The position numbers and the translations under genes are program-made. Below, one piece after another: positions 1,347 through 63,300 of a DNA stretch of 64,000 bases. The notes under the pieces are model-generated. The model worked only from the letters and a program-made list of their open reading frames with translations. It was not told the DNA's origin and made no database searches. Source of the DNA: Scilla litardierei (lineage: Eukaryota; Streptophyta; Magnoliopsida; Asparagales; Asparagaceae); contig CM061133.1 of assembly GCA_030789695.1 (NCBI GenBank), positions 91,549,248-91,613,247 on the forward strand, given 5' to 3'. The stretch's first letter is position 1, and each line of letters starts with the position of its first letter.

Positions 1347-1646
1347 CCTAGGTTCGGGTCCAATCTCTTGCAAACCCTAGCCTAGGGAAGCTAGCATTAG
1401 GATCAACATCATCGTCCAATCGCGCACCGAGTCCAATCTCTTGCAAACTCAGCCCACGACCTAGATTGGGATAGTTCCTACCCGTCCAATCTCTTGCAAA
1501 CGGGTATTGGAACGGAATTGCAACCGGAAACCCTAGTATCGGCCCAATCTCTTGCAAACCGATACTACGGAAATTCGATTCCAACCCAATTCGGATTTCT
1601 AGGGTTTCCTATCGAATTGGGATCCAATCTCTTGCAAATCCCAATC
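1347..1646 (-). other. Five-hairpin cluster in the element A 3' LTR
   Basis: Five copies of TTGCAAGAGATTGG (minus strand), each flanked by a different inverted repeat. This is the same arrangement as in element B at 42702-43001. The middle hairpin keeps a perfect TACCCGT/ACGGGTA stem. One hairpin (ACCGAGT arm) is weakened here by an A for G change that the 5' LTR copy does not have. Confidence 0.75.
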
Positions 1647-11385: not shown

Positions 11386-11685
11386 CCTAGGTTCGGGTCC
11401 AATCTCTTGCAAACCCTAGCCTAGGGAAGCTAGCATTAGGATCAACATCATCGTCCAATCGCGCACCGAGTCCAATCTCTTGCAAACTCGGCCCACGACC
11501 TAGATTGGGATAGTTCCTACCCGTCCAATCTCTTGCAAACGGGTATTGGAACGGAATTGCAACCGGAAACCCTAGTATCGGCCCAATCTCTTGCAAACCG
11601 ATACTACGGAAATTCGATTCCAACCCAATTCGGATTTCTAGGGTTTCCTATCGAATTGGGATCCAATCTCTTGCAAATCCCAATC
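11386..11685 (-). other. Five-hairpin cluster in the element A 5' LTR
   Basis: Same five loops and stems as in the 3' LTR. Here the ACCGAGT arm has its pairing partner ACTCGG. Relative to B, the second hairpin has GAGA for GAAA in the loop, and a U-G closing pair where B has U-A, with the reverse exchange further out. Confidence 0.75.
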
Positions 11686-31400: not shown

Positions 31401-33267
31401 ACAAGACACGACGTGACATGACAGGGATGGTTCTTCTAGGGGGTCCACACGCACGCACACACAAGATAACCCTACAGTGTCAAAAGTTGTTGTTGAGCTT
31501 AGACTTCGTCGTCAAGTCTAAGCCGTTAAGGGGTGTCCCAGACGCTATCATTTCATGTCCGGTTCTCTTTATTCACAGTTTAATAGTTCTAGCAGTCTAA
31601 GGCATAGGCACGGCCAAAAGTGCAAGTGAGTACACTTGCCTGCGGTGGCAAGTGTGTCATCCGTCCGGAGCGTCCCGTCCAAGCGACTCGTCTGTGGTAG
31701 TCCGTCTGAAACAGGGTCACGACGACGGTGTCAGGTCGCGTTTTTCAATAAGTCCTTTTTGGGTTTGTTTCTAGATTGGCGGGACTACCATATTCGTCAG
31801 AAGTCACATTTTGGTGTTTCGTTCAACCTAGATCGAATTCTACCCTATGTGCACAGAAAATTTGTCCGATTGTCGATCTTTCCTACGGTGGGCAGTCATT
31901 TATAGAAGCTGAAAATAAATTTAGTTTAAGTTGTCCAATTTTAGTTTAGGTTTTGGTTGAACTGCGGTGTTGGTTCGCTACGAGTTAGGGGGACCAACCT
32001 CTCCGGTGTTTGACGTAGAACGGAAGTAGGGTCTGAACGGTGGATGCTCCTCGTCGTCTACGGCGTCTTGGCTACGGGTAGCGTAGCCAGACACATCCTG
32101 GCAGCAGACTGAACATGAGGGCCGTAGCTAGGGACTGGACAGCGAGCAGGGAAACAGATCTGTGGGCGTCGGGCATCGTGAAGGCGTCTAACGACGACGG
32201 GGAGAGCGAACAGCGAACTGGAAACAAAAACATCGAATGAGGGTGGCCGTCTTGCGAAGACAACCACCGGCTGCAGTTGTAGGCGGCGCGGAGGAGTCTG
32301 GGGGTGGTTGGTGCGGCGACACGGCTGTCGGAAAGATCACAGCAGCTGTTTCAGGGTTACGTGCTCAGCTGCGGAAAGGAGAAGGCCGCACATGGTGCCT
32401 TGGCAGCACAAAGGGCAGGAGGAGTGCTCTACGGCAATCAGGGGCGACACAGGGGTGTTTGCCGATGATCGGGGCAGAGTTTTATCATCGGGCGATGGCC
32501 AAAAAACAAGCAGCAGCCGCTCGGGCTGCTGCTGCGCGAAAAGCTGTCGGCGGGGGCTGTTTCAGGCGGTTGAGGCGGCGCTGGGGTCTCGTAGATGGCG
32601 GGCGGCGCAAAGTCCAGCCGGCGGTGACCGTGAAGTGCTGCAGCAGCTCGGCTGCTGTCGTGTGTGGGAGGAGAGGACAGCTCACGGCTGTCTTTGCGGC
32701 GGAGAGAGCAGGCCGGAGATGCTGCCGTCGACGGGGATCATCGTGGTGGAGGCCGGTGATGGGAGGCTTCGGGCTAGGGTAAGAGGTACATGGTGGCGGC
32801 TTGGAGAGTTTGAAACTTTAGGGTTTTGCACGGGGGAGGTAAATGTGATGGCTGGGAGAGTAACCAAAAATAAACCTAGCCTTAGGTTTAATTAAATAAT
32901 AAAGGGAGGGTGTAACGTGCGGCTGAGATTTGGGTAGGCCTAGGTTTGTTTTTAATGTGAAAACATGTGCTAAATAGCTATAGGATTATCGGTTAAAGGG
33001 GAAGAGATATAGAGATAGAGGGAATAGAAAGAGGGGAAATTTTAGAAAACAATAGAGGGAGAATAATTGGAAGGATATACATGATAATATTTAGGGATAT
33101 GATTAGATTCCAATCAGATTTGAATTTCAAAAAGATTCAGGGTTAATCAAAGGTTGGAAATTGATTAGGGGATAAGTTCCTCCACGGGCATTGGAAAAAT
33201 AATCCGAAAATACCGGAACGAACGTGGAGGCGAGATGTATGAGGCTACGAGGTCTGATCGTGCGCTA

Positions 33268-33873
33268 TGTTGGATATGGAAGACGTTTGTACACCCTTGT
33301 GGGGTATGTACGAGGGAATACGGACCTCGAACGTCGCGTACACGAAGTCGTGTACAAAGGGAATCTGTTCCCTTGCGGAGAGGATCTCTGGATGAGTGGG
33401 AAAGTCACATTATATATGCATAAGTGCATGCGACATATGGCTAATAAAGGGGGAATATCTTAAGCTTATGTTGTACCATGCATATGGTACAACTTAAGCT
33501 TATAATGTGCCATGTATCATGGTACACCTTAATTAAGTTGTTCCAAAAGAACAACTTACCCTAAAATAACTACCTTGGGGGCTATAAATAAGACCCAATG
33601 GTAAGTCATTTCTTACACCTTTTGCATGAAATTCATGCATGCAACTTCATCATAGCGAAGCTCTGCAGAAATCCTTTCTCTTCCTCTATCCAAGTTCTTA
33701 ATCTAAAGTAGAGATTTAGATTGTGGATTAGTAGCCTTACTCCGTTCGTGAGAAGACTCGATCCGTCGTGGCGAATCCGAAGGCGAAGTTCGTAGACTAC
33801 CGCGCCGCATACGCAAGCGTAAGTCTAAACTTCATATTATCGATCCTAACTCTGTTTTGGACGGGATCCTACA
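33268..33873 (+). repeat. 5' LTR of element F
   Basis: TGTTGGATATGG...CCTACA, TATA box at 33583-33590, GTAAGT donor-like site at 33819-33824. Confidence 0.95.
33583..33590 (+). promoter_or_regulatory. TATA box in the element F 5' LTR
   Basis: TATAAATA about 285 bp before the LTR end. A start near 33615 would give a first exon of about 200 nt up to the donor at 33819. Confidence 0.7.
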
Positions 33874-33874
33874 T

Positions 33875-33887
33875 TGGTATCAGAGCC
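33875..33887 (+). other. Primer-binding site of element F (initiator tRNA-Met)
   Basis: TGGTATCAGAGCC one base after the LTR end. Confidence 0.9.
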
Positions 33888-34375
33888 ATAAGGGTTCGCC
33901 CCGGTCAAACCGCCGCCCCGTCGAAACTATGAACGAGTCGTTGTCTTTTTCACGAATGGGTCTCCTACTATTACGGATATAGTAGGAACGCTTCGTGACG
34001 GAGAGAACGCAGCGGTTGTTCTTTTCACGTTAGGGTCTCCTATCATTACGGATATGGTAGGAACTCTCCGTGACGGGAAGAACTGACCGTTCACGTAGTA
34101 TGTTATTTTTCATTTTTGGCACACGGCCATTAGGAAATAACTAATTTCTCGACGAACGGGTGCTTCATCGACGAACGGGTGCTTCATCGAGGAAGATGAT
34201 GGTAGTTATTTCCATCAGGTAAGAGGAAATTTGGTGCATGTGCACCATGGCCAAATGGGCTATGAAGTCTATGCACCCCCCTCCCCAAGCGGAGGGGGTT
34301 GGCTACGGCCAATAACCACCGGCGACCACCCCATCAAGGGGGAGGAATGTGTGTGGCAACCCCATTCAAAGGGGG

Positions 34376-34730
34376 TGGCCGGCCATGGCCAAAGGGGCCA
34401 TGGCCGGCCAATGCCAAATGGCCTTGGCCATGACCGGCCATGGCCAAGCCATGGCCGGCCATGGCCAGGCCGGCAGTGGCCGGCCAAGGCCAGGCCGGCC
34501 TTGGCCAAGGCCTGCCGGCCTGGCCGGCCCTGGCCGGCCTGGCCTGCCCTGGCAGTGGCCAGGGCCAATGCCCTGGCCTCGGCCAGGGCCTGGCCGGCCT
34601 TGGCCGGCCTCGGCCAGGGCAGAGGCCATGGCCAAGGTGGCCAAGGCCCCTGGCCGGCCAGGGCAGAGGCCCTGGCCGGCCCTTGGCCAAGCCCCGGCCA
34701 GGGCAGAGGCCCTGGCCGGGAAGAAGTTGC
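34376..34730. repeat. GGCCGGCC/CCATGGCC palindrome array in the element F leader
   Basis: Repeated GGCCGGCC, CCATGGCC and CTCGGCCAGGGCAGAG words, as in E. Open frames on both strands here are compositional. Confidence 0.85.
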
Positions 34731-35159
34731 GACCAAAAAAAAATTGGTCGACCAATTTGGTGTTTTTGGTCGACCAATTCGACAGAAGGTCTGGGTCGAT
34801 TGCAAACTTGCCAAATGACCCATACGGGGTAACAAAAGGCCTTGGTCAAACTCAAATGTGTCGATTAGTCCATACGGGGCTAACCACAGTGCCGACTAGT
34901 TCATACGGGACTAACGTTTTAATGAAGTTTTTTTTGGGCTCTACTCCTTGAAGACTAGCCATAGTGCTCTACTTCATGCGAGATTAGCCAAATCATTGTG
35001 CTCTACTCTACGGAGATTAGCCAATGTACTTATGACGTTGTGCTCTACTCTACGGAGATTAGCCAATGTATTTTGAATTTTTGAAAAATACGTTTTTCAA
35101 AAATGCTTTTCCGCTGCAAAGTACTATAAGAGTACTAACATTTGATAAAGTGAGGGAGA

Positions 35160-35234
35160 AATATTGAAAGTTACTCTAGATGGGGATTGGAAACATGGTG
35201 ACCTTTCCGACTCTAGAGTAACATTTTCAATATT
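35160..35234 (+). other. TCTAGA-stem hairpin 1 in the element F leader
   Basis: Left arm 35160-35180 ends GTTACTCTAGA; right arm 35212-35234 starts TCTAGAGTAAC. The pairing is preserved although three stem bases differ from hairpin 2. Confidence 0.6.
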
Positions 35235-35414
35235 TTTCGAAAGTAACTTATCAAATTATGAATATCATTCCAAGTGGGAGTTGATTTTAGAACTATCCAT
35301 ATGGGATATTCTATTATCATTTCAAGTGGGAATTATATTTGAAAAATACGTTTTCAAACTCGTTTTTTCGCTGCTAGTACTATAAGAGTACTATTGTTTG
35401 ATAAGTGATGGGGG

Positions 35415-35489
35415 AATATTGAAGGTTGTTCTAGATGGTGATTGGAATCAAAGAGACCTTTTCGATTCTAGAACAACATCTTCAATATT
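35415..35489 (+). other. TCTAGA-stem hairpin 2 in the element F leader
   Basis: Left arm 35415-35435 ends GTTGTTCTAGA; right arm 35467-35489 starts TCTAGAACAAC. A partial duplicate of hairpin 1 with compensating changes. Confidence 0.6.
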
Positions 35490-35615
35490 TTTTGAAAGTA
35501 ACTTATCAAATATAATATAATTTCAAGTGGGAGTTATATTTTTAAGAATTTTTATGCAATGTGTTTTTGATCGAACCTTCGGTTTTTATGTCTTTTGCAG
35601 CATTTTAAAAGTAAA

Positions 35616-38600
35616 ATGTCTTCCGCTTCAAAGAATATCGTCGCTGAGTTAAACAAAGGTGAAAAACTCAACGGCAATAATTACAAACTTTGGTCCATTA
35701 AGATACAATACGTTCTAGAGGAGCAAGAAGTGCTCGAAACTCTAAAGAACGTTATGATTGAACCGGAGTTGGGCACTACGGCCCAACACCGAAGAGACAA
35801 GGAAGCTTTTGATGCTTGGTCTCGGAAGAATAAGATAGCGTGCATTACGTTATTAAGCAGTATGGCTGATGACATAATGCGCATCTTCCGAGAACATGAC
35901 CTAGCCATGGACATATGGTCCAAGCTAGAGGAGAAGTTCGGTGGCACATCGGTGTCCAAACTTCGCGCCTTAACTATAAAGTTCGATACATATAAGAAAC
36001 GTCCAGATCATTCCATGGGGAAACATCTGCGACATATGACGAACCTTATCTCAGAGTTAAAGGACGCAGGTCATGTGCTCACGGATGAGCAACAAATCCA
36101 AGCAGTCATACGTTCCCTGCCAAATGGGTGGGACCAAATGAAGATGCATCTCACTCACAATGAGAGCATCAAGACCTTCAGCGATGTTTCCAAGCACCTC
36201 GAATTAGAGGAAGAGCGGCTTGCAGCTGCCAAGCCAAGTGCAGAAGTGCACATGGTTGCCAGTTCCTCACACGGAGGAAAGAAACGGAAAAATCGTTCGA
36301 AGTTCACTAATGAACGTAATAAGCAACCTGAGTCTACCAAGAAACCCAAACATAAGGGTGGGCACAAGAAATGGCACAAGAAGAAAGACTTGAAGAGGAT
36401 CAAGTGCTTCAAGTGCAACAAGCTCGGTCACTATGCTCGTTCGTGTACGAGTGGAGGCGACGAGGTAACTTGTAAATATACTAGTTACATATGTGTTTCT
36501 AGTTCAATATTTCTTGTGGAATCTAATCCATTTTGGATAATTGATTCAGGTGCCACCGACCACATAGCAAGGGACAGACGGTCCTTTGTGGAGTATCACC
36601 GGATACCCCAAGGAACGAAGTGGATCTATGTAGGAAACAACACACGTGTTGAAGTGAAAGGCGTTGGGACTTGCAAGCTAGTCTTGGACAACGGCCGCAC
36701 TCTCCTACTTCATGATGTCCTCTTCGCTCCAGATATTCGAAGGAATATAATTTCTGTGGTTGTATTAATGGGTCTTGGCTATAGCTGGTTTTTTCATGAT
36801 TGTAATGTGGACTTAAGTTGTAATAATACTCTTATTGGTACTGGGTTTGTATTTAAAGGATTTATTGTAATGAGTACAATGTATGATTCCTCATGTAATG
36901 AAAATTTCCTTGTTGCAAATTCTAAGACTTATGAGTCTGATGTGAATTGTTGACACGCAAGGCTTGGTCATATTGGACCAACGCGTATGGATAGACTTGT
37001 CAAACGTGGCCTTCTATCCAATGTTTCAAAGGTTGAAATGTCGACCTGCGAACATTGCCTTGTGGGGAAATCTTGTCGCAAGCCGTTTGGAACCGGCACA
37101 AGGGCCGAGGTTCCATTATAGCTTATCCATTCGGACATATGTGGTTCGATGAATGTCAAGACAAGACGCGGAAAGTCCTATTTCATCACTTTTATTGATG
37201 ATTTCACCCGATTCGGACATATCTATTTTATATCCCACAAAAGTGAAGCTTTGGCTTGCTTTAAAAACTATATGAGTTTAGTGGAGAATCAATTAGATCG
37301 CAAGATTAAGGTCTTGCGAACTGATAGGGGCGGTGAATATCAATCAATAAGTTTTAAGGAACTTTGTGATGAAAAAGGCATAGTACATCAGGTAACTATG
37401 CCTTATACTCCTCAACAAAATGGTGTTGCAGAAAGGAGAAATAGGACTTTAATGGAAATGGTCCGTTCAATGATGGCGCAAGCTTACTTGCCAATCACCT
37501 TTTGGGGTGATGCATTATTGACGGCCACTTTCATTTTAAACCGCGTACCCTCGAAATCAGTTAGCTCCACTCCTTATGAGTTGTGGAACCAAAGGTCTCC
37601 TGACTTAAACATTTTGAAACCTTGGGGTTGTGCATCCTACGCACATATTTCCTCCCATAAGTATGGCAAACTTGGTCCAAGGGGAAGGAAATGTATCTTT
37701 ATACGATACGCAGAAAACTCCAAAGGTTATGTTTTTGTTAGTCAGGAAGACAATGGTGGGATAATTGAGTTTGAGTCGAGGGATGTCACTTTCTTGGAAA
37801 ACGAGTTTCCAAGACAGGGCGAGATAAGTCAAGACTTATCTCTATTTGAGATTTATGATCAAGAAGGATTACCTAATTCGAGTGGGAGAATTCTTGGTGA
37901 AAATGAAAATACGTTTCAACCTTCACCAATGGATTATACGAATGACGATTATCCTATTCCATACGGGAATAATGATCCAAGTGGGAGCAATTCTAACGAC
38001 ATTCCAAGTGGGAGTGATATTAGAATTGATCTAAATTCAAGTCAACAAGGACTTGAAGAATCTCAAATACGACGTAGTAGTCGTACAAGGTTGGCTCCTC
38101 TAAGATTTGAGGATGAGTTTCCGTAAACCTTTATGACTTTACTACAAGAAGATGACGAGCCTGCTACTTTCAAACAGGCCGTATCTTGTCCTGCTAAAGA
38201 CAAATGGATGGAAGCGATGCAAGAGGAATTAGAATCCATGAAAGTTAACCAAGTCTGGGACTTAGTTGACTTACCCAGAGGACGTAGAGCTATTGGGAAC
38301 AAATGGGTTCTCAAGATCAAGCATAAGGCTGATGGCTCTATTGACAGATATAAAGCTCGCCTTGTCGCGAAAGGTTTTACGCAACAGGAAGGGATAGACT
38401 ACGAAGAGACCTTCTCACATGTTGTTCGTTTTACCTCAATTCGCCTGATTCTGGCAATGGTAGCTTGCTTAGACCTCGAATTACATCAAATGGATGTAAA
38501 GACTGCTTTTCTCAATGGAGAATTGGACGAGGAGATCTATATGGAACAACCAACAGGGTTTGTAAAAGAAGGAAACGAACATAAGGTTTGTAAACTTCTT

Positions 38601-39719
38601 AAATCTATATATGGTCTTAAACAATCCTCGAGGCAGTGGTATATACGATTTCAAGAGGTTGTCTTATCAAATGGTTTATCCATGCTTGATGAAGATAACT
38701 GTGTATATATCAAGAGGAATAAGAACAAGTATGTTATTATGTCTCTATATGTAGATGACATTTTAATAGCCGGAAATGACAAGGGCTTTGTGATGGATAT
38801 CAAGGCTTGGCTTTCATCAGTTTTTTGAGATGAAAGACATGGGAGAAGCCGCATATATCCTTGGAGTTAAGATTTCAAGGAACCGTTCAAAGAAACTTCT
38901 TTCTCTTTCACAGGAGACTTATATAAAGAAGGTTCTAGAACGTTTTAATATGCAGGACTGCAAGTCCATTGATACTCCAATAAGCAAGTGCGACAATTTA
39001 TGTCTGAAATCATGTCCAAAGAACCAAAAGAGAAGGAGATTATGGAAAAAGTTCCATATTCCAGTGCAGTTGGTAGTCTAATGTACGCTATGATGTGTAC
39101 AAGACCGGACATCTGTTTTGCCGTTGGAATGGTAAGTCGTTACCAATCCAACCCAGGGCAAGTACACTGGAAAGCGGTTAAGAGGATAATGCGGTATCTC
39201 AAAGGAACTGCAGACTTTGCTTTATGCTATCAAGGAGATGCCTTGAGGCTCGAAGGCTACACTGATGCTGATTGGGCGGGTGATCTCGATGAGCGAAGAT
39301 CGACCTCAGGATATGTTTTTCTACTCGGATCTGGTGCAATATCCTGGAGTAGCAAGAAACAATCATGCATCGCACTTTCAACCATGGAAGCCGAGTTTGT
39401 AGCATTTAGCATGGCAGTTTAAGAGGCTGTTTGGCTTAGGAAGTTCTTAGACAGGCTAATTAATGCAAGTGACTCAGGTGTTGTACCTATACACAGCGAC
39501 AATCAAGCATCTATAGCCTATGTCAAAGATCCGAAATTCCATTGTAAGACCAAACACATAGATATCCGCTACAAATTTGCAAAAGACTAAGATAAGACCA
39601 AGAAGGTAGACATAAGGTACATATCTACGCATGAGATGATAGCGGATCCGCTTACGAAGGCGATCCCCAGAGATGTGTTTTACAAACACTTATCATCTCA
39701 AGGATTGCGTAAGAGCTGA
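35616..39719 (+). pseudogene. Element F Copia Gag-Pol polyprotein with point defects
   Basis: ATG at 35616. Gag (UBN2-type core), knuckle CFKCNKLGHYARSC at about 36405-36446, protease DSGATDH at about 36543, pre-integrase RLGHIGPTRMDRL and CEHCLVGKSC, integrase DDFTR, RTDRGGEY and PQQNGVAERRN (all three catalytic positions present), reverse transcriptase with YVDD at about 38750, RNase H with TDADWAGD, TMEAEFVA and SDNQASIAY. Defects: TGA at 36951-36953, TAG near 37120, TAA near 38124, an extra T in a T-run at about 38822-38827, TAA at about 39420 and TAA near 39587. All domains are present, so it looks recently inactivated. Confidence 0.9.
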
Positions 39720-40750
39720 GTTGTACCAATGTAAATTCACATGTCTGTAAATGATCAAAATTAATAAAAGAATAAGTTCTTTTTCAAACATTGCATATGA
39801 ATTTCTTAAGAAATGTTTGTGTACATTTTTGAAATCTCAGCTGAATTGTGTGTATGTCGGATAGATTAAGGTTGGCTCTCTCACATGAGCAACAGCCTTA
39901 TCTTATCAGATGGATAAGATAGAGATGAGACTAGTTTAAAGTCAAAATCATTAGACGAATGATTTAGAGTCATGACTTAAACAAGATAGTCGAATGAAAG
40001 ATCTGCATCATATGGATGCTTACAAAAGATCTGAGATCTGTATCACAAGGATATTTGAAAGAGATCTCATAGGATTTTTTCCTATCTGTCTTATGCAGGA
40101 TGAGAGTCCGTGAATATTTCACGAGTAGTAAGGGGACTCAAAAAGATAGTCACTGTGGTGTCTGATCTTTTCATCCGTACAACATCATTAAGACATACTC
40201 TCCCTGGGAAAGGAGTGATGTTGTAATACGTGTCCATACCACGTATGCATTTCGACCACTGAGTTAGTAGCAATAGTGTTTGCTATTATGTGAGACTCAA
40301 AGGCCATATGGGTCTTAACTCTTACCCTCAAGGACTCCAATTGGTTCCTTTAGATTTGACGAAATGATCGCTATCTTAGCGTGTTACTTATGGGCTATGA
40401 TAATTCGGCTCGGCGGGGCACGTTAGAAAAGCGAGTCTAGTCAAGATCAGAAGGTTCGCAAGAAGAGGAAGATTGATTTCATATTCGCATTTGGACTTTA
40501 ATGATTCAAAGCTGGCCAGCCAATTGTAATCCAGATGGGATTCAATTGTTGAATATAAAGTATAAGAAATGCGAAGAAATAATCTAGGGTAAAGCATGCG
40601 TTGAACTACTCAACTTTGCACCTTCGAGGTCGTTGTGTATCTCTAACAAGTGCACAACAACAGACTCTACGTGCATGACGGTCGCACGGTCTATTTCTCG
40701 GTATGATAGATGAAAGAACTAAGGGAAAGACGTTCTCTTACAGTCCCCTC
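39720..40750 (+). other. Element F 3' non-coding region
   Basis: About 1 kb without a credible frame, collinear with 26652-27649 of E. It ends at the polypurine tract AAGTGTGAGTGGGAGA (40751-40766). Confidence 0.75.
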
Positions 40751-40766
40751 AAGTGTGAGTGGGAGA

Positions 40767-41372
40767 TGTTGGATATGGAAGACGTTTGTACACCCTTGTG
40801 GGGTATGTATGAGGGAATACGGACCTCGAACGTCGCGTACACGAAGTCGTGTACAAAGGGAATCTATTCCCTTGCGGAGAGGATCTCTGGATGAGTGGGA
40901 AAGTCGCATTATATATGCATAAGTGCATGCGACATATGGCTAATAAAGGGGGAATATCTTAAGCTTATGTTGTACCATGCATATGGTACAACTTAAGCTT
41001 ATAATGTGCCATGTATCATGGTACACCTTAATTAAGTTGTTCCAAAAGAACAACTTACCCTAAAATAACTACCTTGGGGGCTATAAATAAGACCCAAGGG
41101 TAAGCCATTTCTTACACCTTTTGCATGAAATTCATGCATGCAACTTCATCATAGCGAAGCTCTGCAGAAATCCTTTCTCTTCCTCTATCCAAGTTCTTAA
41201 TCTAAAGTAGAGATTTAGATTGTGGATTAGTAGCCTTACTCCGTTCGTGAGAAGACTCGATCCGTCGTGGCGAATCCGAAGGCGAAGTTCGTAGACTACC
41301 GTGCCGCATACGCAAGCGTAAGTCTAAACTTCATATTATCGATCCTAACTCTGTTTTGGACAGGATCCTACA
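40767..41372 (+). repeat. 3' LTR of element F
   Basis: About 98.8% identical to the 5' LTR by eye. Followed by CGCTA (41373-41377) and the continuation of the element C LTR. Confidence 0.95.
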
Positions 41373-41544: not shown

Positions 41545-41840
41545 TGATCACTCCTTATTTTACACCCTTTTCCCGCATGTTTGCATGCCATTTTGATCGC
41601 CCAAATTATGTTTTTCACGATATATCGACGATATTGCGATGCTTTTCACGATTTGTTGTTTTTGTCGCATTTCAGGTGATTTGGCGCGATTAGGAGTGAT
41701 CTCGAGATGCGTGTAATCTAGACGGCCACCGACGACCTCCCCGAGGGGTATTTTGCTATTAGAGAGGAGCGGAAGAAGAATGGACGTCGCCGGAGCGACG
41801 AGGAGGCCAAAACGACCAGTTTGGGCATTTTTTGTGTCCC

Positions 41841-42220
41841 ACTCGGCCGAGTGGAGGAGCCACTCGGCCGACCAGCGAGACACTGCTCGACCGACCCGTT
41901 CAGACACGACTTCCATGTGTACTCGGCCGAGCGACGGAGACCACATCGGCCGAGTGACGCTACCACGTCCGCCCGAGTGGCGCCCAGACGAAGGCCCTCA
42001 AAAAGACCGAAGTTACTGTTTTTCGGCCATCTGAGCTTCAGAAGACCCACTCGGCCGAGTGGCGAATCCCGTCCGCCCGAGTGAAGTGAAGCCATCGGCC
42101 GAGTGACGACAACTCACTCGGCCGAGCCACCCCCGAACTAAAGACCCCTGAAGTCCCCGACTTACTGGAGAATTTACAGGGTTTTCACTCGGCCGAGCGA
42201 CTTTTGTCACTCGGCCGAGT
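41841..42220. repeat. ACTCGGCCGAGT palindrome array in U3 of the element B 5' LTR
   Basis: Complete 12-mers at 41841, 42049 and 42209. The 10-mer CTCGGCCGAG also occurs at 41922, 42116 and 42188, with near-copies at about 41862, 41944 and 42095. It ends about 85 bp upstream of the TATA-like box. Confidence 0.9.
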
Positions 42221-42304
42221 GCGATGCGCTGCCTGTAGCGAAATTTGCGGAAAACAGGCTGTGCAGGGGCGTTTTGGTCAGGATTTTTGGACGATTTTTG
42301 GGGC

Positions 42305-42311
42305 TATTTAA
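42305..42311 (+). promoter_or_regulatory. TATA-like box in the element B 5' LTR
   Basis: TATTTAA after a T-rich stretch. A start near 42335 would put the hairpin cluster about 370-670 nt into the transcript. Confidence 0.45.
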
Positions 42312-42701
42312 GCTCTGTTTTTACCCTAGTTTGAGAGCCTCCTCTCAGATTTTTTGCAGCTTTTTGAGTCTACTTTTTAGCTTTATTAATTGTGATTGGT
42401 GAAGAGAAAAACTTGGATTTTTGTTGGGTTGATTGAAGATCTACATTGGTTTGCACTTCTCTTCCACAAAAACTCTATTTTTATTGTTTATATCATTGTT
42501 GTGATGAATTCCATTGTCTATCTCTTTGCCAATTATTGTGCTATTGCTATGATTAGTGAGTAGTCTCCACGTCTTGGGGCGTGGGGATGAACCCTACAAG
42601 CCCAATTTCGTATTTGTGTTGAATCGGTAGAAATTGAGCTAGGATTGTTATTAGGGATTAGATTGGGATCGAATTACTACGGATAGCTAGGTATTCGCAT
42701 C

Positions 42702-43001
42702 AATTGGGATTTGCAAGAGATTGGATCCCAATTCGATAGGAAGCCCTAGAAATCCGAATTGGGTTGGAGTCGGATTTTCGAAGTATCGGTTTGCAAGAAA
42801 TTGGACCGATGCTAGGATCTCCGGTTGCAATTCCGCGCCGATACCCGTTTGCAAGAGATTGGACGGGTAGGAACTATCCTAATCTAGATTGCGGACCGAG
42901 TTTGCAAGAGATTGGACTCGGTGCGCAATTGGACGATGATGTTGATCCCAATGCTAGCTTCCCTAGGCTAGGGTTTGCAAGAGATTGGACCCAAGCCTAG
43001 G
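42702..43001 (+). other. Five-hairpin RNA-like cluster in the element B 5' LTR
   Basis: Five copies of a 14-nt apical sequence TTGCAAGAGATTGG (GAAATTGG in copy 2), each closed by a different stem: AATTGGGAT/ATCCCAATT (42702-42733), GTATCGGT/ACCGATGC with one U-G (42783-42812), TACCCGT/ACGGGTA (42842-42869), ACCGAGT/ACTCGGT extended by GCG/CGC after a mismatch (42891-42926), and CCTAGGCT-A-GGGT/ACCC-A-AGCCTAGG (42962-43001). Inside each, CAA/TTG closes a GAGA or GAAA tetraloop (GNRA class). The shared loops and unrelated stems argue for a structure kept at RNA level. Confidence 0.8.
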
Positions 43002-43367
43002 ATAGCTATAGACCGGCAACAGCGCGAGAGCGTGAGCTTGGTTCCACATTTAGTTGCAACTAGTTCATCCAAATTCTCATCCTAGCGATTTCGATACTGG
43101 CGAACCACAATTGTGAAATATGGTGAGTAGTGGGGATTCCCCATTCCCTAGGCGTTCTCTATTTGATTTGATATTTCGCACTTTTGTCTGACGATTGTGA
43201 CAGGATCGCCCAAGGCAATTATCCCTCTAAATAGCCAGGTTGATTAGGAGCAAGCACGGTCATTCGTCCTCCCTGTGTTCGATACCCGCTCGCCGCTATA
43301 CCGTGCGCTTGCGGTAAAACTACAACCGTCGCCTCGGGACGTGTACGCCGGGGCGCGACCAAGTTTT

Positions 43368-43385
43368 TGGCGCCGTTGCCGGGGA
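43368..43385 (+). other. Primer-binding site of element B (tRNA-Asp type)
   Basis: TGGCGCCGTTGCCGGGGA, 6 bp after the LTR end. Confidence 0.85.
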
Positions 43386-43536
43386 GGCGATTGCGTTTGA
43401 TTCTTTTTCACCTAGCTATTTCTTCCTTTTATTTTCTTTTTATTTTATTTCTTTTACCATTATTATTTCCTTTGCTATTTTTACCTAACCCTTCCACGGT
43501 ACTAATCATCTCTTTGAAACTCTGCTTTCACTGTGC

Positions 43537-46311
43537 ATGTATACGAGATCTACGGCGGACCCCGAAGCCCTATTATTCGATCCCGAGATCGAACGTACCG
43601 CGCGGAGACTCAGAGCGGAAAGGAGACAATATCCGGAAGGGGGGTTTATGACCAACCGGGAAACTCCTGAAGAATTGGCGGCGAGAATGGCGAGAATAAT
43701 ATCTATTCGCGATAGGCTTCGGCCTAAAACATCTTCTACTACGTCATCCATCGCCGTGCCGGAGTTGGCGGCCGACAAGAACTTCGAGCTAAAGACAGGG
43801 TTGGTGGTTTTGATGCAACAAGACCCCTTTCATGGGAACGCTCACGAGAACCCCCACTACCACATCCAATCTTTCTTGTCGAAGTGCGCCACTTTCCAAA
43901 TGCCGGGGGTCCCGATTGATGCCATCAGACTGCGCCTCTTCCCCTTCACGCTAAAGGACAAAGCACTCTATTGGCTGAGGACGCAAGCTGACGGAGTTTT
44001 CACCTCTTGGGACGGGTTGGCGGATGCATTCATTGATAAATTCTATCCACCATCCAAGACGGTGAAGATCCGGAGCGCTCTCATGTCCTTCAAGCAAGGA
44101 CCACACGAGACGCTCTATGAAGCTTGGGAGCGATTTAAGGATTTGCAGCACCAGTGCCCGCACCACAGTATAGAAGATTGGGAGTTAGTGCACAGCTTCT
44201 ACAACGGTCTCCAACCGGGGACCAAACAAATTATTGATGCCGCGGCGAATGGTGCAATCTTGTCAAAGACTCCCGAGGAAGCTACGGCCCTAATTGAGGA
44301 GATGGCCTCTAATAACCAACAATGGGGCGATGAGCGAGGACACTCTACGTCCTCCTTAAAGCCGACTAGCATCTACGAGGCAAAGGCCGTAGCGGAGCTT
44401 ACGAGCAAATTTGATTCTCTCCACAAGGTGGTGGAGAGATTGGAGAAATTCATCACGGAGCCTCAAGGAAGCCCTTCCACCTCCACGCCGGCAAGCCAAA
44501 TGAGTGATTGGCAAGACCAATCTCAAGCCATGTATTCGGGAGGAGAGCAAGGAGAAGGATCCTTGGAGCAAGTGCAATATGTTGCGGGGAACCAAGGGTA
44601 TTGGTCTAATCCGGCCGCAAGAAATCACCCGGGATTCTCCTACGCCAACAATGAAGGAGCTTTGAACCCGCCACAACAACCGCCTAATCAAGCTCGACCA
44701 CCACCACCCCAACAACAATACTATCCGCCGAGGGGGCCTCCACAACAAAACTTCCAACCAAAGCAACAAGTCCCACCTTATAGGCCTCCCGGATACAACC
44801 AAGGGTGGAGGAATCAAAACCAAAACCCTCCACAAGCTCCACAAAGATCCGATTTCGAAACTAGAGTGGAGGCGTTCATGGTCGAGCAAAACAAGGTGAA
44901 TGCTACTTTGAAGGCGGGACAAGATTCTCTCAATACCGTAGTGGCTCAAATTTCGAAACAATTAGCGGTGCTCAACCGGAACACTCAAAGATTGCCGGCG
45001 CAACCGGAGCAAAACCCACGGGGCAACACGGGCCACATCAACGCCGTAGTTGCCGTCACAACTAGAGGCGGGAAGGACACCACCCCCGCCATGATTCCTA
45101 TTGAGGAGGCCGTGGAGGAAAGCTTGGAGCCGGTTGAGCCGGTAGTTGAGGTCGATAAGGAGAAGGAGCCACAAGACAAGGAGAAATCTAGGGCGGAGCT
45201 ATTAATTGAGGAGAGGCGCTTCATGCCACCGGTCCCATTCCCCCAAAGACTAGCGAAAGCGAAAATGGAGAAAAGGCTAGCGAAATTCCTCGAGTATCTA
45301 AGAGGAGTTAGCCTAAATATTCCCTTCCTTGACGCCATCATCGAGATCCCCACATATGCCAAATTCTTGAAGGACTTGATTTCGGGGAGAAAGAGGAAGG
45401 AGAAGATCATGCTAGCCGAGGAGGGCTCTTGGTTCACCAAGAGAGAAAAGGAGCCGGCAAAATTCAAAGATCCGGGGAGTTTTCGGATTCCTTGCACTTT
45501 GGGCGGTGTGCCTCTTCAAAAGGCGTTGGTAGATCTTGGGGCTAGTGTGAGTCTCATGCCCCTCTCCATGTTCTTAAAGCTTAACACCGGGACAACGTTG
45601 AAACCCACCGACATGCGCATTCAATTAGCCGATGGACGGATAACAAGGCCGGTGGGGATCGCCGAAGACATCCCACTTCAAGTCCCGGGAGGAATATGCT
45701 TGCCATGTGACTTCGTCATCATGGACATTAAGGAGGAGGGAGACACCTCATTGATACTTGGGCGCCCATTCCTCGCCACCGCCGGAGTCATCGTCGACGT
45801 GCGCGAAGGTACCTTAACCTTAAACGTCGGAAACATCGAGGTGGAACTCCACATTCCCAAGGCAATGAAGCACATGCCTTACCATGAGGAGCTCGATTAT
45901 ATGGACCTCCTTGATGAGGTGATAGAGGAGGCGATTCCTCACTCAATTGGTGCCCTTTTTGATGAAGAATTGGATGAAAGCCCGGATTTAGGCCATGAGG
46001 ACAATAATGATGATTCCCCAGACTTCTCCGCTGATGAAGATGAAGGCGACGCTGATGTCGCAAGGATTCGAGAGCTCTGCAAGCTCTCGAAATCAAAGTC
46101 TCCAAAGAAAGCTCCGCCGGTACGGAAATCGGCATCGCCGGCTAAGCCGTTGACCGGGGCAAATGCTAGCTTGGGGGAGCCTCCCCCAACACTATTCGAG
46201 ATAGGAGACCTCCGAGGGAGACCGCTACGCCGTCACGTCCGAATCCAAGCGCGCTCCCCGGAAAGTTTGACGGGTGCATCTCATGTGCACCAAACATCCC
46301 GCATTGATTGA
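43537..46311 (+). CDS. gag-pro: Gag-protease polyprotein of element B, 924 codons
   Basis: ATG at 43537, 151 bp after the primer site. Gag domain at about residues 70-230 with LRLFPFTLKDKALYWLRTQ and FIDKFYPPSKT, Pro/Gln-rich linker (about 360-430), no Cys-His knuckle, acidic segment, then the protease with D666-L-G-A-S and ILGRPFLATAG near 738. The Leu in place of Ser/Thr in the catalytic motif is shared with A. It forms particles and processes itself if the variant protease is active. After GEPPP the tail reads in another frame than in A because the C-run has five C here and six in A. Which is ancestral is unknown. It ends without joining a polymerase, unlike full Athila elements. Confidence 0.92.
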   Translation: MYTRSTADPEALLFDPEIERTARRLRAERRQYPEGGFMTNRETPEELAARMARIISIRDRLRPKTSSTTSSIAVPELAADKNFELKTGLVVLMQQDPFHGNAHENPHYHIQSFLSKCATFQMPGVPIDAIRLRLFPFTLKDKALYWLRTQADGVFTSWDGLADAFIDKFYPPSKTVKIRSALMSFKQGPHETLYEAWERFKDLQHQCPHHSIEDWELVHSFYNGLQPGTKQIIDAAANGAILSKTPEEATALIEEMASNNQQWGDERGHSTSSLKPTSIYEAKAVAELTSKFDSLHKVVERLEKFITEPQGSPSTSTPASQMSDWQDQSQAMYSGGEQGEGSLEQVQYVAGNQGYWSNPAARNHPGFSYANNEGALNPPQQPPNQARPPPPQQQYYPPRGPPQQNFQPKQQVPPYRPPGYNQGWRNQNQNPPQAPQRSDFETRVEAFMVEQNKVNATLKAGQDSLNTVVAQISKQLAVLNRNTQRLPAQPEQNPRGNTGHINAVVAVTTRGGKDTTPAMIPIEEAVEESLEPVEPVVEVDKEKEPQDKEKSRAELLIEERRFMPPVPFPQRLAKAKMEKRLAKFLEYLRGVSLNIPFLDAIIEIPTYAKFLKDLISGRKRKEKIMLAEEGSWFTKREKEPAKFKDPGSFRIPCTLGGVPLQKALVDLGASVSLMPLSMFLKLNTGTTLKPTDMRIQLADGRITRPVGIAEDIPLQVPGGICLPCDFVIMDIKEEGDTSLILGRPFLATAGVIVDVREGTLTLNVGNIEVELHIPKAMKHMPYHEELDYMDLLDEVIEEAIPHSIGALFDEELDESPDLGHEDNNDDSPDFSADEDEGDADVARIRELCKLSKSKSPKKAPPVRKSASPAKPLTGANASLGEPPPTLFEIGDLRGRPLRRHVRIQARSPESLTGASHVHQTSRID

Positions 46312-51739: not shown

Positions 51740-53556
51740 TGATCACTCCTTATTTTACACCCTTTTCCCGCATGTTTGCATGCCATTTTGATCGCCCAAA
51801 TTATGTTTTTCACGATATATCGACGATATTGCGATGCTTTTCACGATTTGTTGTTTTTGTCGCATTTCAGGTGATTTGGCGCGATTAGGAGTGATCTCGA
51901 GATGCGTGTAATCTAGACGGCCACCGACGACCTCCCCGAGGGGTATTTTGCTATTAGAGAGGAGCGGAAGAAGAATGGACGTCGCCGGAGCGACGAGGAG
52001 GCCAAAACGACCAGTTTGGGCATTTTTTGTGTCCCACTCGGCCGAGTGGAGGAGCCACTCGGCCGACCAGCGAGACACTGCTCGGCCGACCCGTTCAGAC
52101 ACGACTTCCATGTGTACTCGGCCGAGCGACGGAGACCACATCGGCCGAGTGACGCTACCACGTCCGCCCGAGTGGCGCCCAGACGAAGGCCCTCAAAAAG
52201 ACCGAAGTTACTGTTTTTCGGCCATCTGAGCTTCAGAAGACCCACTCGGCCGAGTGGCGAATCCCGTCCGCCCGAGTGAAGTGAAGCCATCGGCCGAGTG
52301 ACGACAACTCACTCGGCCGAGCCACCCCCGAACTAAAGACCCCTGAAGTCCCCGACTTACTGGAGAATTTACAAGGTTTTCACTCGGCCGAGCGACTTTT
52401 GTCACTCGGCCGAGTGCGATGCGCTGCCTGTAGCGAAATTTGCGGAAAACAGGCTGTGCAGGGGCGTTTTGGTCAGGATTTTTGGACGATTTTTGGGGCT
52501 ATTTAAGCTCTGTTTTTACCCTAGTTTGAGAGCCTCCTCTCAGATTTTTTGCAGCTTTTTGAGTCTACTTTTTAGCTTTATTAATTGTGATTGGTGAAGA
52601 GAAAAACTTGGATTTTTGTTGGGTTGATTGAAGATCTACATTGGTTTGCACTTCTCTTCCACAAAAACTCTATTTTTATTGTTTATTTCATTGTTGTGAT
52701 GAATTCCATTGTCTATCTCTTTGCCAATTATTGTGCTATTGCTATGATTAGTGAGTAGTCTCCACGTCTTGGGGCGTGGGGATGAACCCTACAAGCCCAA
52801 TTTCGTATTTGTGTTGAATCGGTAGAAATTGAGCTAGGATTGTTATTAGGGATTAGATTGGGATCGAATTACTACGGATAGCTAGGTATTCGCATCAATT
52901 GGGATTTGCAAGAGATTGGATCCCAATTCGATAGGAAGCCCTAGAAATCCGAATTGGGTTGGAGTCGGATTTTCGAAGTATCGGTTTGCAAGAAATTGGA
53001 CCGATGCTAGGATCTCCGGTTGCAATTCCGCGCCGATACCCATTTGCAAGAGATTGGACGGGTAGGAACTATCCTAATCTAGATTGCGGACCGAGTTTGC
53101 AAGAGATTGGACTCGGTGCGCAATTGGACGATGATGTTGATCCCAATGCTAGCTTCCCTAGGCTAGGGTTTGCAAGAGATTGGACCCAAGCCTAGGATAG
53201 CTATAGACCGGCAACAGCGCGAGAGCGTGAGCTTGGTTCCACATTTAGTTGCAACTAGTTCATCCAAATTCTCATCCTAGCGATTTCGATACTGGCGAAC
53301 CACAATTGTGAAATATGGTGAGTAGTGGGGATTCCCCATTCCCTAGGCGTTCTCTATTTGATTTGATATTTCGCACTTTTGTCTGACGATTGTGACAGGA
53401 TCGCCCAAGGCAATTATCCCTCTAAATAGCCAGGTTGATTAGGAGCAAGCACGGTCATTCGTCCTCCCTGTGTTCGATACCCGCTCGCCGCTATACCGTG
53501 CGCTTGCGGTAAAACTACAACCGTCGCCTCGGGACGTGTACGCCGGGGCGCGACCA
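51740..53556 (+). repeat. 3' LTR of element B
   Basis: About 99.8% identical to 41545-43361 by eye. Palindrome array at 52036-52415, hairpins at 52897-53196 (third hairpin weakened by one G to A change). Followed by CACAT. Confidence 0.96.
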
Positions 53557-59810: not shown

Positions 59811-60716
59811 TCAAGCACTGCTCGGGAAAAGGTGCGAGAAGCGCTCTCTCATCTCATCCTCACGTTCCCAGGTAGACTCACCAGGGGAACCGTGACGCCA
59901 CTGCACTCGAACCAAGTCGACGGTCTTATTCCTCAGCTGCTTCTGTCGACGATCCAGAATCTCAACTGGCTGCTGATCATAAGACAGATCCAGACAACCC
60001 GTGATCTCCGAGAAATCCACAGCGTGTGACGGATCACTAACGTATCGGCGTAACTGGGATACGTGAAATACGTCGTGAACTCCCACCAGCGATGGTGGCA
60101 ATGCCAAGCGATAAGCCACAGCTCCAACTCTCTCCATAACATCAAACGGTCCGATGAACCTCGGACTCAGCTTGCCTCTCATCCCAAATCGAATAACTCT
60201 GAGGTTCGAAGAAATCTTCAGAAAGACATGATCGCCAGGCTGAAACTCCAAAGGCCTCCGTTTAGCATCGGCCCAATGCTTGAAATGGTCCTGCGCAATC
60301 CTCAGCTTCTTCCGGATGTTCCTCACAACATCCACGGCCTCCACAATCATATCCTGTCCTAACAGATCCTGATCTCCAATGTCATCCCAGCTCAGTGGCG
60401 ATCGACATTTCTTTCCATATAGCGCGGTGAAAGGCGCCATTCCAATACTCGCCTGGTAGCTGTTATTGTAGGCAAACTCAACGTGATGGAGATGATCCTC
60501 CCAAGATCCCTTAAAGTCCAACATGCACGCACTCAGCATGTCCTCCAAAATCTGAATCGTCCTCTCGGACTGGCCATCCATCTGCAGGTGGTACGCCGTG
60601 CTGAAACTCAGACTCGTACCCAAGCTCTTCTGCAGACCCTGCCAAAACTGAGACGTGAATCTCATGTCTCTGTCCGACACGATACTCACAGGGACTCCGT
60701 GAAGTCATACGATCTC
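59811..60716 (-). pseudogene. Element D integrase 3' part and chromodomain-like tail (exon 3)
   Basis: Follows the 70-nt intron in phase 0. It carries the second catalytic Asp (SIVSDRDMRF), the catalytic Glu region (MDGQSERTIQIL), a C-terminal DNA-binding part (GPFDVMERVGAVAYRLALPP, VFHVSQLRRYV) and a chromodomain-like end (PVEILDRRQKQLRNK, then RVQWRHG and STWERE) typical of Tekay/Del chromoviruses, thought to steer integration into heterochromatin. A TGA at 60705-60707 (from CGA) lies four codons into the exon, otherwise it is open to 59811. Confidence 0.85.
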
Positions 60717-60786
60717 CTGCACGATTCACGTTACATCACTATCTAAACTAGGAAAGGAAATAAAAACGGAGAGTAAAAGAATTTAC
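60717..60786 (-). other. Intron inside the element D integrase (70 nt)
   Basis: Sense ATGGAG|GTAAATT... to ...CGTGCAG|GAGATC, phase 0. Homologous to the 74-nt intron at 20114-20187. Read through, translation would stop at 60748, after the first catalytic Asp only. Confidence 0.7.
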
Positions 60787-63203
60787 CTCCATATATCTCC
60801 TCGCTAGCATCTCAGTGGACTGTCCTACTCGGAAGGGAATAAAGTGTGCGGATTTGGTCAATCGATCTACGATCACCCAAATCGTGTCATTCTGCTTCGG
60901 AATCCGAGGTAGTCCAGTCACAAAATCCATAGTGATGTGTTGCCACTTCCACTCCAGAATCGGAAGCGGTTGCAACAACCCTGCCGTACGCTGATGCTCC
61001 GCCTTTACTTGTTGGCAAACCAAACACTTGGCTACACTCCGAGCCACACTCCTCTTCATACCATGCCACCCAAAGTTCAGGTGAAGGTCCTTGTACATCT
61101 TGGTGCCACCAGGATGTACAGAATACGACGAACTGTGTGCCTCCACCAATAATTCCTCTCTGATATCTCCAGCTGTCACACACAACCTGGCTCCAAATCT
61201 CAACAAACCATCCTCGTGTATTAAAAAGTCAGTCCGCAGACCGGCTTCCATATGCTCCCGAATCTTCACCAGCTTAGCATCTCCAGCCTGTCCAGCCTTG
61301 ATCCTATACACGAGCGTCGACTGTATCTGCATGCTCATCAACGAAGAAGTCTCGCCAGGAAGAATAATCTCGATACCAGTCTCGCAAAAATCCTGCTGCA
61401 ATCTCCACTGCGAAGTCAACATCATCACCGCTGGAAGTCTGCTCAGTGCATCCGGAACTACATTCACCTTACCAGGGTGATACTGCAAGTCAATCTTATA
61501 GCCTGCCATGAGCTCCAACCATCGACGCTGTCGCATGTTGAGCTCCTTCTGCGTAAAGATATACTTCAAGCTTTTGTGATCGGTGAAGATCTTCACCTTC
61601 TCACTCAGCAGGAAGTGCCTCCAAATCTTCAGCGCAAACACGACTGCAGCCAACTCCAAATCATGTGTCGGGTAATTCTTCTCATGAGCCTTATGCTGAC
61701 GAGAAGCATACGCAACCACATGCCCATGCTGATGCAACACACATCCAATACCCTTGCCAGAAGCATCGCAAAAGATCTCGAATCCTCCACTCCGATCAGT
61801 CACAGCAAGTACAGGGGCATTCGGCAATCTCTCCTTCAGAACATCGAAAGCCTTCTCGCAATCATCAGACCAAACATAAGGTACATCCTTCCGCGTCAGT
61901 CTGGTCATCGGCTCAGCAATCCGGGAAAAGTCCTTAATAAAACGTCGATAATATCCTATAAGTCCAAGGAAACTCCAGATCTCAGACGCTGACTGCAAAA
62001 CAGGCCACTCTCTGATAGCCATAATCTTCTCGGGATCCACTGAAATCCTATCACCTGACACCATATGCCCGAGAAAAGCAACTCTATCCTGCCAAAACTC
62101 GCACTTGGAATACTTAGCATACAAACGATGCTTCCTCAGAATCACCAACACTGTCCTCAAGTGCGATGCATGCTCTTCCTCCGACTTTGAATAGATCAGA
62201 ATGTCGTCAATAAAGATAACGACAAACTTGACTAGAAATTCATAGAAGATCAGATTCATTAGGTTCATAAAAACTGCAGGCGCATTGGTCACACCGAAAG
62301 ACATAACCACGAACTCGTAGTGACCATATTTCGTCCTGAACGCTGTCTTCGGGATGTCCTTCATCACCTTAAGCTGATGGTAACCACTCCTCAAATCCAA
62401 CTTAGAGAACACCCTCGAATCTCCAAGCTGATCAAAGATGTCATCTATACGTGGCAAGGGATATTTATTCTTGATAGTCATAGCATTCAGCTCCCGGTAA
62501 TCCACGCACATGCGATGCGAACCATCCTTCTTCTTCACCAGCAACACCGGTGCTCCCCACGGAGACACACTAGGATTGATGTAACCCTTCTGTAAAAGCT
62601 CATCCAGCTGCCTACGCAACTCCTCCAACTCTGCTGGAGCCATCCGATACGGCGCCTTCAAAATAGGCTGCGCTCCCTGAATAAGATTGATCGAAAACTC
62701 GAGAGCTCGATCGGGTGGCAGTCCAGACATCTCCTCGGGGAAGACGTCGTCGAATTCACGTACCACAGCTGGTCTATCCTGCTCCATCTGCATAGCAACA
62801 ATCTCCACTGCCTTGGCCCGAAACCTGACAGGGCCAAGCGAACTACTACCTCGACTGAACTCAAACACAGGATGTCCATGGATCTCGAACACCACCTTCT
62901 TCCTTCGACAATCGATCGTAGCATAGAAACTCGCTAGCCAATCCATCCCAAGCACTGCATCGTAGTTGATGATGTCGTGGACAATAAAATCAGCGTAAAG
63001 CTCATGTCCACAGACCACCAAAGGGCAAGAATTGCTCCCGAGATACACCGAGATCACGCCATTTCCTATAACGATATTCCAACTCTTGGGAAGAGGGAAA
63101 GTCGTCAAGGAATGCTTCTCCACGAAGCTCCGAGAAGTAATGCACATCGATGCACCAGAGTCAAAGAGGACTCGTGCAGGCAATGTGCAAACCAAAATCA
63201 CAC
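60787..63203 (-). pseudogene. pol: Element D protease, reverse transcriptase, RNase H and integrase N-terminus (exon 2)
   Basis: One open frame of about 806 codons from the intron acceptor at 63204. Counting residues from 63222: protease DSGAS 21-25, reverse transcriptase from about 185 with [12 protein letters not shown] and FIDD 337-340, RNase H with CDAS (D486), E523, D548 and D591, integrase zinc block (H696, H703, C733, C736) and the first catalytic Asp D766 in [10 protein letters not shown]. All enzymatic motifs visible here are intact. Upstream gag is missing, there is no ATG near the start, and exon 3 has a stop, so the element as a whole is inactive. The split of integrase between exons is the notable point. 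Confidence 0.88.
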
Positions 63204-63300
63204 CTAACAAACAATCTAACAATCAAACCCTATTCTAACAAACAATCATATGCAATCAAACAAACATCAAAACTATCTAAGGAAGGAAACAACTAGTTTG
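63204..63300 (-). other. Remnant of the gag-protease intron of element D
   Basis: The sense acceptor TTGTTAG|GTGTGATT at 63204 gives the same split Gly codon as in C. The donor side is missing because another LTR starts at 63301. Confidence 0.5.

Follow-up and report, generated by a model that had tools for sequence, protein, structure and literature searches.

The stretch of DNA analysed here (the window) comprises 64,000 nucleotides of Scilla litardierei, from position 91,549,248 to 91,613,247 on the forward strand of contig CM061133.1 (assembly GCA_030789695.1). It contains two related LTR retrotransposons, element A on the minus strand and element B on the plus strand:

about 989-2799 and 11028-12839, minus strand: LTRs of element A, target duplication TTAGG
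41545..43361, plus strand: 5' LTR of element B, TG...CA ends, target duplication CACAT
51740..53556, plus strand: 3' LTR of element B
43537..46311, plus strand: Gag-protease ORF of element B, 924 aa
47472..49703, plus strand: ATHILA ORF (PF03078) of element B

LTR identity is 99.78% within B, 98.84% within A, and about 89% between the two elements. Both have Gag and protease in a single ORF (PF03732, PF13650) with the ATHILA ORF (PF03078) downstream, and this predicted order of Gag, then aspartic protease, together with the ATHILA ORF, would class them as Athila-type. Within the scanned ORFs of A and B, there is no Pfam match for reverse transcriptase (RT), RNase H or integrase, and tblastn of both elements with the pol frame of a relative described below matches nothing except the last 138 residues of that frame. 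Two other retrotransposons are present in the window. A third LTR element, at 33267-41372, has copia-type Gag and integrase and LTR-like ends that are 98.8% alike; element B begins about 170 bp beyond its end, in sequence that recurs at 18909-19082. A Gypsy element on the minus strand (59811-63222), which served as RT query, contains domains of RT, RNase H and integrase and weakly matches a chromodomain.

Inside the 5' LTR of B, TTGCAAGARATTGG occurs five times on the plus strand, starting at 42711, 42791, 42849, 42902 and 42975. These five hairpins make up an array spanning 42699-43008, which is found in all four LTRs:

42699..42737, plus strand: hairpin 1, core 42711-42724, tetraloop GAGA
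42782..42813, plus strand: hairpin 2, core 42791-42804, tetraloop GAAA in B and GAGA in A
42842..42869, plus strand: hairpin 3, core 42849-42862
42888..42929, plus strand: hairpin 4 with its outer helix, core 42902-42915
42955..43008, plus strand: hairpin 5, core 42975-42988, A x A mismatch in the stem
52906..53183, plus strand: array cores, 3' LTR of B
11399..11676, minus strand: array cores, 5' LTR of A
1360..1637, minus strand: array cores, 3' LTR of A

Each LTR of A and B carries five copies within about 280 bases, and when the window is scanned for TTGCAAGARATTGG with up to two mismatches allowed, there are 20 matches, 20/20 of them exact, while 100 shuffles average 1.29. The sequence-only reading that preceded this analysis had described five copies within 300 bp on unrelated stems, all repeated in element A, and this is borne out: the copies on the plus strand of B are exact, the stems of different hairpins have only 1-5 of 7 letters in common, and both LTRs of A repeat the five on the minus strand. 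It had also called the stems fully paired. This is true of hairpins 1-4, whose flanking arms in B5 form 9, 9, 7 and 7 contiguous pairs free of gaps, but not of hairpin 5, where 4 pairs are followed by the A x A mismatch and then by 8 more pairs.

The arms belong to their own hairpins. When each is paired with its own partner, 32/35 positions match (binomial tail 2.6e-10), and the real assignment alone of 120 reaches this figure. The control is provided by viral contigs, in which there is no array and only 68 single core matches; 64 of these chance occurrences are flanked by no more than 3 pairs and 3 by 5 or 6, with a single one reaching 10. The 300-nt array stretch folds far better than its shuffles do (z = -6.4, with 0/200 as good). 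When the window is searched for loops of 10-20 nt carried by stems of at least 6 pairs, no second loop on three or more distinct stems appears, and 5 mononucleotide shuffles yield no such loop at all. Superposing the five hairpins of A and B upon one another shows two-sided changes at 7/12 pairs, in 19 cells as compared to 5.9 after shuffling (0/500), with slid controls giving at most 3. Rfam 15 at gathering score assigns no family over the array. Its sole match in the window lies elsewhere, at 10232-10338 on the plus strand, where snoR71 (a plant C/D snoRNA) is above gathering score, antisense inside the Gag ORF of element A.

The differences between A and B leave most of the pairing in place. 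Nine substitutions fall in stems, and 7/8 altered pairs remain paired, one of them, 42890/42927 in the outer helix of hairpin 4, through a two-sided change that turns T-A into C-G. In hairpin 2, the exchange of U-A and U-G pairs seen by the sequence-only reading is confirmed, U-G becoming U-A at 42811 and U-A becoming U-G at 42805. The two-sided change had escaped that reading, as had two broken pairs, at 42847 in the 3' LTR of B and at 42995 in A. Monte Carlo probabilities for so few breaks are 0.04, 0.02, 0.03 and 0.00001 under four null settings, and on the four window copies a simple pair counter finds no excess over shuffles (86/500 for cells paired).

The Athila-type family carrying the array is a very abundant plant retrotransposon family. 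An exact 16-base core is found 141,286 times in the 3.68 Gb genome (71,115 forward and 70,171 reverse), while the reversed core, used as control, has 0 occurrences in the same sequence. Outside plants, a two-core pattern gave no match in prokaryote genomes, and a Gag query none in viral contigs. Two alignments were made from the genomic copies. The first combines A and B with 31 distinct copies located within the initial 1.9 Mb of C1, whose identity to B is 74-97%, for a total of 33. For the second, 64 matched loci yielded 39 distinct segments, 38 of them lying in the first 2.4 Mb of C1 and the other, L076, on C5446, and the addition of A5 and B5 brings the total to 41. Because the arrays were located by exact core, every one sampled on C1 has at least one intact core, a bias that is corrected in the leave-one-out divergence and uncorrected in the parsimony rates per site. 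The latter are 1.48 changes per site in stems, 1.44 in spacers and 0.60 in cores; in the former, the cores stand at 5.7% versus 22.2%.

While stems change as fast as spacers do, they remain paired. Among the 41 copies, 119/2,909 stem cells are unpaired, compared to a mean of 413 and a minimum of 301 in 300 runs of a tree-based null in which the same substitutions are reassigned randomly among stem columns along the tree. Ten two-sided events keep a pair, as against a null mean of 1.86 and maximum of 6 (300 runs). In the 33-copy alignment, 113 cells show two-sided change versus a shuffled mean of 41.6 (0/500), with slid controls at 24 or fewer, and the number of pairs with such change is equalled or exceeded in 14/500 shuffles; further pair types are no higher than in shuffles (468/500). 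The sequence-only reading had proposed a covariation test across genomic copies, and the outcome depends on its form. The tree test on the whole structure gives strong support, but a pair-by-pair G-test on the 33 copies, similar to R-scape with a tree null and of little power here, gives just 2/78 structure pairs at E<0.05, and 0 significant pairs when extended to all 92,665 column pairs.

Several individual pairs alternate between two states in the 33 copies. Pair 42787/42808 in hairpin 2 is CG in 17 and TA in 16, 42845/42866 in hairpin 3 is CG in 19 and TA in 14, 42844/42867 is CG in 17, TA in 14 and something else in 2, and 42896/42921 is TA in 17 and CG in 15, with one gap. The most telling switches are those of the loop-closing pairs, at a site that is invariant among the five hairpins of the window: 42907/42912 in hairpin 4 is CG in 23, AT in 8 and TG in 2, and 42980/42985 in hairpin 5 is AT in 25, CG in 7 and TG in 1. 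Since these pairs switch from A-U to C-G, the conserved unit is best written UU-UG-CAM-GARA-KUG-G-R, a module whose small helix is intact. Over the 41 copies, 198/205 loops are GNRA, and all three inner pairs are standard in 198/205. A few pairs are weakly kept, such as 42784/42811 (paired in 17 of the 33), 42785/42810 (22), 42893/42924 (23) and 42968/42995 (15). In a table of element classes (gag-type, pol-type and short), for which 20 of 22 planned rows were scored, hairpins 1, 3, 4 and 5 retain all or all but one of their counted pairs in 20/20 rows, and hairpin 2 lacks 1-3 of its 13 pairs in 12/20, including all 8 rows from short elements.

That the array is an RNA structure under selection is thus strongly supported: pairing is kept while the stem letters change. 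The sequence-only reading had taken conserved loops on covarying stems as the mark of such a structure, and the whole-structure tests on genomic copies give this strong support. Chance, or the recent duplication of one hairpin, can practically be dismissed. Duplication could yield identical loops, yet the stems differ and each pairs with itself, no comparable loop turns up in the window or the shuffles, and the tree test refutes both. It is also very improbable that the repeats act as DNA, as transcription factor sites or as hotspots of silencing or small RNAs. Their location in an LTR would suit this, and the palindromes in Sirevirus LTRs are such small-RNA hotspots (PMC5311732, PMC10760457). 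Here, however, the stems vary freely as long as they pair, G-U is tolerated, and the GNRA is on one strand only. Maize Sirevirus LTRs resemble ours in having clusters of inverted repeats in a plant LTR, but the palindromes, as the same excerpts present them (cited in PMC5311732, PMC10760457), have a constant stem, CACCGGACNNNGTCCGGTG, and a variable centre. The array is the reverse of this, with a constant loop on variable stems and no constant stem sequence.

Folding of the alignment by RNAalifold, with no structure supplied, recovers the five stems. The inner helix is drawn in hairpins 2-5, and the apex of hairpin 1 is drawn otherwise, with that helix absent. The energy is -93.1, whereas none of 100 tree simulations goes below -70.5; two-sided changes affect 20 pairs, as compared to at most 18 in the simulations. 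The fold also points to further helices:

43023..43034, plus strand: sixth small hairpin predicted by RNAalifold, loop AGAG at 43027-43030
42760-42779 / 42815-42835 (span 42760..42835), plus strand: long helix beneath hairpin 2, equalled in 0/300 null runs, its pairs having been picked from the alignment tested
42659-42669 / 42876-42886 (span 42659..42886), plus strand: possible long-range helix around hairpins 1-3, weaker, equalled in 3/300 null runs

The sixth hairpin has 12 one-sided changes that keep its pairing and 1 that breaks it, equalled by 2/300 null runs. A register shifted by one base, which would give it a GAGA loop, pairs less well (28/33 at one pair), and AGAG is the loop predicted. 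The outer helices X, Y, W and V are equalled in 3, 6, 24 and 2 of 300 null runs, and helix Z in 0, the pairs of all five having been selected from the same alignment as the one tested.

The array is flanked by two landmarks that situate it in the RNA:

42305..42311, plus strand: TATA-like TATTTAA, upstream of the array
43368..43385, plus strand: primer binding site (PBS) TGGCGCCGTTGCCGGGGA, downstream of the 5' LTR array of B

The PBS is of a kind that we take to be tRNA-Asp type. A TATTTAA or TATATAA lies 300-520 nt before hairpin 1 (mostly 360-410) in 17/17 arrays with at least 520 nt of upstream sequence. Where detected, the PBS lies 646-694 nt past the first core, and it is present after 5' LTRs. 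The order of promoter, array and PBS is therefore conserved, and with a TATA word upstream and a PBS downstream the array is predicted to lie in the first ~700 nt of the RNA, before the PBS. This supports the placement in the transcript leader that the sequence-only reading had predicted. The predicted leader (42335-43537, ~1.2 kb) has eight upstream ATGs ahead of the Gag ATG. It may also contain a short intron at 43122-43204, with GGTGAGT at 43122 and ACAGG at 43200, both words being present in A and B.

A leader of this length with 8 upstream ATGs could control translation of the first ORF, through ribosome shunting, reinitiation or an internal entry site. The structured leaders of plant pararetroviruses, which contain short ORFs, do so (PMC5902531). 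We consider this improbable for the array, however, as shunting has no need for several identical GNRA modules, and the first ORF behind this one leader can be any of three: gag, pol or a short frame of unknown kind.

The leader is also rich in the palindrome TTGCAA, found seven times in A and B (42711-43059 in B), twice outside the hairpins; in B, one copy sits within a 12-nt palindrome at 43051-43062. These repeats recall an RNA dimerisation signal, acting by TTGCAA kissing or by the docking of GNRA loops in receptors, and the RNAs of Ty1 and Ty3 are reported to dimerise via complementary or palindromic 5' stretches (PMC5454406, PMC11381356). But TTGCAC...GTGG or a near variant takes the place of the palindrome in hairpin 4 (23/33 copies) and hairpin 5 (7/33), which keeps helix and GNRA while destroying self-complementarity, and both copies outside the hairpins are missing from divergent members of the family. 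The conserved self-complementary loop of a retroviral dimer initiation site is not found here. Because the palindrome is lost from so many copies of hairpins 4 and 5 while pairing is retained, the dimer signal suggested by the sequence-only reading is unsupported as far as a loop palindrome is concerned, kissing through TTGCAA is largely refuted, and dimerisation through the loops has little probability.

The leader is shared by elements of different coding content. Thirty elements with the array were classified: A, B, 14 on C1, and 14 further insertions viewed by short windows only. There are 18 of Gag-type (A and B included), 7 of pol-type, 5 short, and 0 with both Gag and RT/integrase. The sequence-only reading had proposed that the element depends on the proteins of another, and this count both supports and extends it. 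The 14 elements on C1 are bounded by pairs of array-bearing LTRs and comprise 7 with Gag-protease like B, 2 of pol-type and 5 short ones; the intervals 33517/40173 and 191762/196755 were left out because their ends, 88% and 79% alike, are not an LTR pair. The main non-Gag representatives are as follows:

G000:C1:1478008-1489301 (L117, L127, L128, L118): pol-type, with neither Gag nor protease
G000:C1, L137, L140, L141, L148 and L149: short elements, 5-6 kb between arrays, with PBS
L164-L167 and L176: pol-type members of the further insertions

Both pol-type elements on C1 have RT, RNase H and integrase and no Gag or protease. In the intact one, the pol frame (L127) stays open without a break for 1,336 codons from just past the PBS, between LTRs 99.65% alike; the other is interrupted by stops. 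The pol and Gag-protease frames end alike, the final 138 residues of the former matching the end of the latter. From this match to the end of the internal region, the intact element is 91-93% identical to B. Gag-type and pol-type elements thus look as if they derive from one ancestor by complementary deletions. The five short elements have no Gag, protease, RT, RNase H or integrase domains. Right after their PBS comes the frame of unknown kind, weakly related in 4/5 to the N-terminal part of the pol frame. In L140 it is 442 aa long and matches nothing in Pfam, and a protein search brings up no relative at E<=0.001.

The 14 further insertions, whose arrays are at least 99% identical to that of B, were read in 741-nt windows (plus 1,201 nt in one). 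Nine of them show Gag and 5 show pol. All matched stretches are free of stops, and a frame shift divides one of the pol windows (L166). Several are on short unplaced contigs, so some could be one insertion assembled twice. LTR spacing in the Gag-type is 10.15-10.20 kb in 8 of 9, like B, which leaves no space for pol, and 13.45 kb in the ninth, where the ATHILA ORF is placed as in B. This longer element (G000:C13:458917129-458930580) probably received a later insertion past the start of its ATHILA ORF. Four of the five pol-type insertions have a spacing of 11.27-11.30 kb, and one of 9.35 kb. With arrays at least 99% identical to that of B, the Gag-type copies are nearly uniform among themselves, and the pol-type likewise.

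From this distribution, a model of what the array does can be proposed. We favour, on balance, a multivalent cis-acting tag, most likely one for packaging by Gag in trans, although the packaging step is inferred. The leader RNA would fold as an ordered domain whose working parts are the five hairpins with their common apical module, made of U-U, a bulged UG, a 3-bp helix CAM/KUG, a GNRA (GAGA) tetraloop and G-R. One protein would read the GNRA module in its setting of bulge and small helix, and the presence of five copies would confer avidity and selectivity. The reader would most likely be Gag from Gag-type elements, since all three kinds need packaging and the pol-type and short kinds cannot supply it. 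This Gag would gather all tagged RNAs into the same particles, and elements with complementary gene losses could thereby multiply together. In A and B, neither a strict nor a relaxed pattern finds a CCHC zinc knuckle in Gag, so a contact like that of retroviral nucleocapsid is not indicated and Gag would have to bind in some other way. However, shared leaders can arise by recombination or template switching without any packaging role.

The same anatomy would serve a host protein that binds the array for some other RNA step, such as nuclear export, stability or storage. The retroviral constitutive transport element, with its paired identical loops, offers a comparison: here too, identical recognition modules are repeated on a conserved structure, and the array is present regardless of coding content. 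We regard a host reader as unlikely, although nothing specific stands against it; a signal linked to Gag accounts better for an array shared across complementary gene losses.

Packaging through a 5' leader structure has precedents. Retroviral and Ty leaders hold packaging and dimerisation elements (PMC7599994, PMC4974528, PMC11381356, PMC5454406). Like SL-B/C/D of MoMuLV and the core encapsidation signal of HIV-1, the array consists of several stem-loops in the predicted 5' leader, upstream of gag, with conserved structure, and in MoMuLV tight nucleocapsid binding requires several stem-loops jointly (PMC7599994). In contrast to these signals, ours is made of five GNRA modules on unrelated stems, lies inside the LTR and upstream of the PBS, has no conserved loop palindrome, and goes together with a Gag lacking the CCHC pattern in A and B. 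Ty1 and Ty3 likewise have a structured 5' RNA end with packaging and dimerisation elements that work in trans, as mini-elements with a helper show (PMC5454406, PMC11381356, PMC4974528). As outlined there, however, Ty1 uses a pseudoknot with kissing hairpins and Ty3 one palindrome, rather than a repeated GNRA hairpin array.

Plant elements offer closer parallels in gene content. Athila elements with gag and without pol are already known in Arabidopsis, where Gag or Gag+env elements have intact ORFs and mobilisation in trans was inferred (PMC2410132). In the available sections of that paper, all potentially autonomous pol-bearing elements also have gag, and no leader structure is described; here the pol-type is without gag and protease, and Gag-type and pol-type share a near-identical leader. 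The partners BARE1/BARE2 of barley (PMC3735527) and Cereba/Quinta of wheat (PMC11302176) share packaging signals or supply Gag: BARE2 is packaged in BARE1 particles (PMC3735527), and in wheat an element supplying Gag to an autonomous partner is known (PMC11302176). One partner is autonomous in both pairs, and the portions of these papers at hand describe no hairpin array. In the open-access literature searched, we found no description of the five-hairpin array, although one may exist outside open access, and in the literature examined no plant LTR retrotransposon had a packaging or recognition signal that structure and covariation defined. Plant LTR retrotransposons account for a great part of large plant genomes, and packaging in trans is a necessity for many of them. 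With a repeated hairpin whose register and loop are known, the choice of RNA by Gag in plants becomes testable with short RNAs.

A further step, which we put forward tentatively and hold to be less probable than its converse, is that Gag-protease and RT-integrase elements form a two-component LTR retrotransposon, neither part of which is mobile alone, with the identical GNRA array as their common packaging ticket, carried by the short elements as well. If the split between Gag-type and pol-type holds genome-wide, this would be a bipartite retrotransposon with no autonomous part. Among the best 120 of 7,944 protein matches to the pol frame, many are plant relatives of ~1,700-1,900 aa with Gag and pol together. 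Others among the same 120 are ~1,200-1,400 aa long and have no Gag domain, so pol-only frames may occur beyond this genome.
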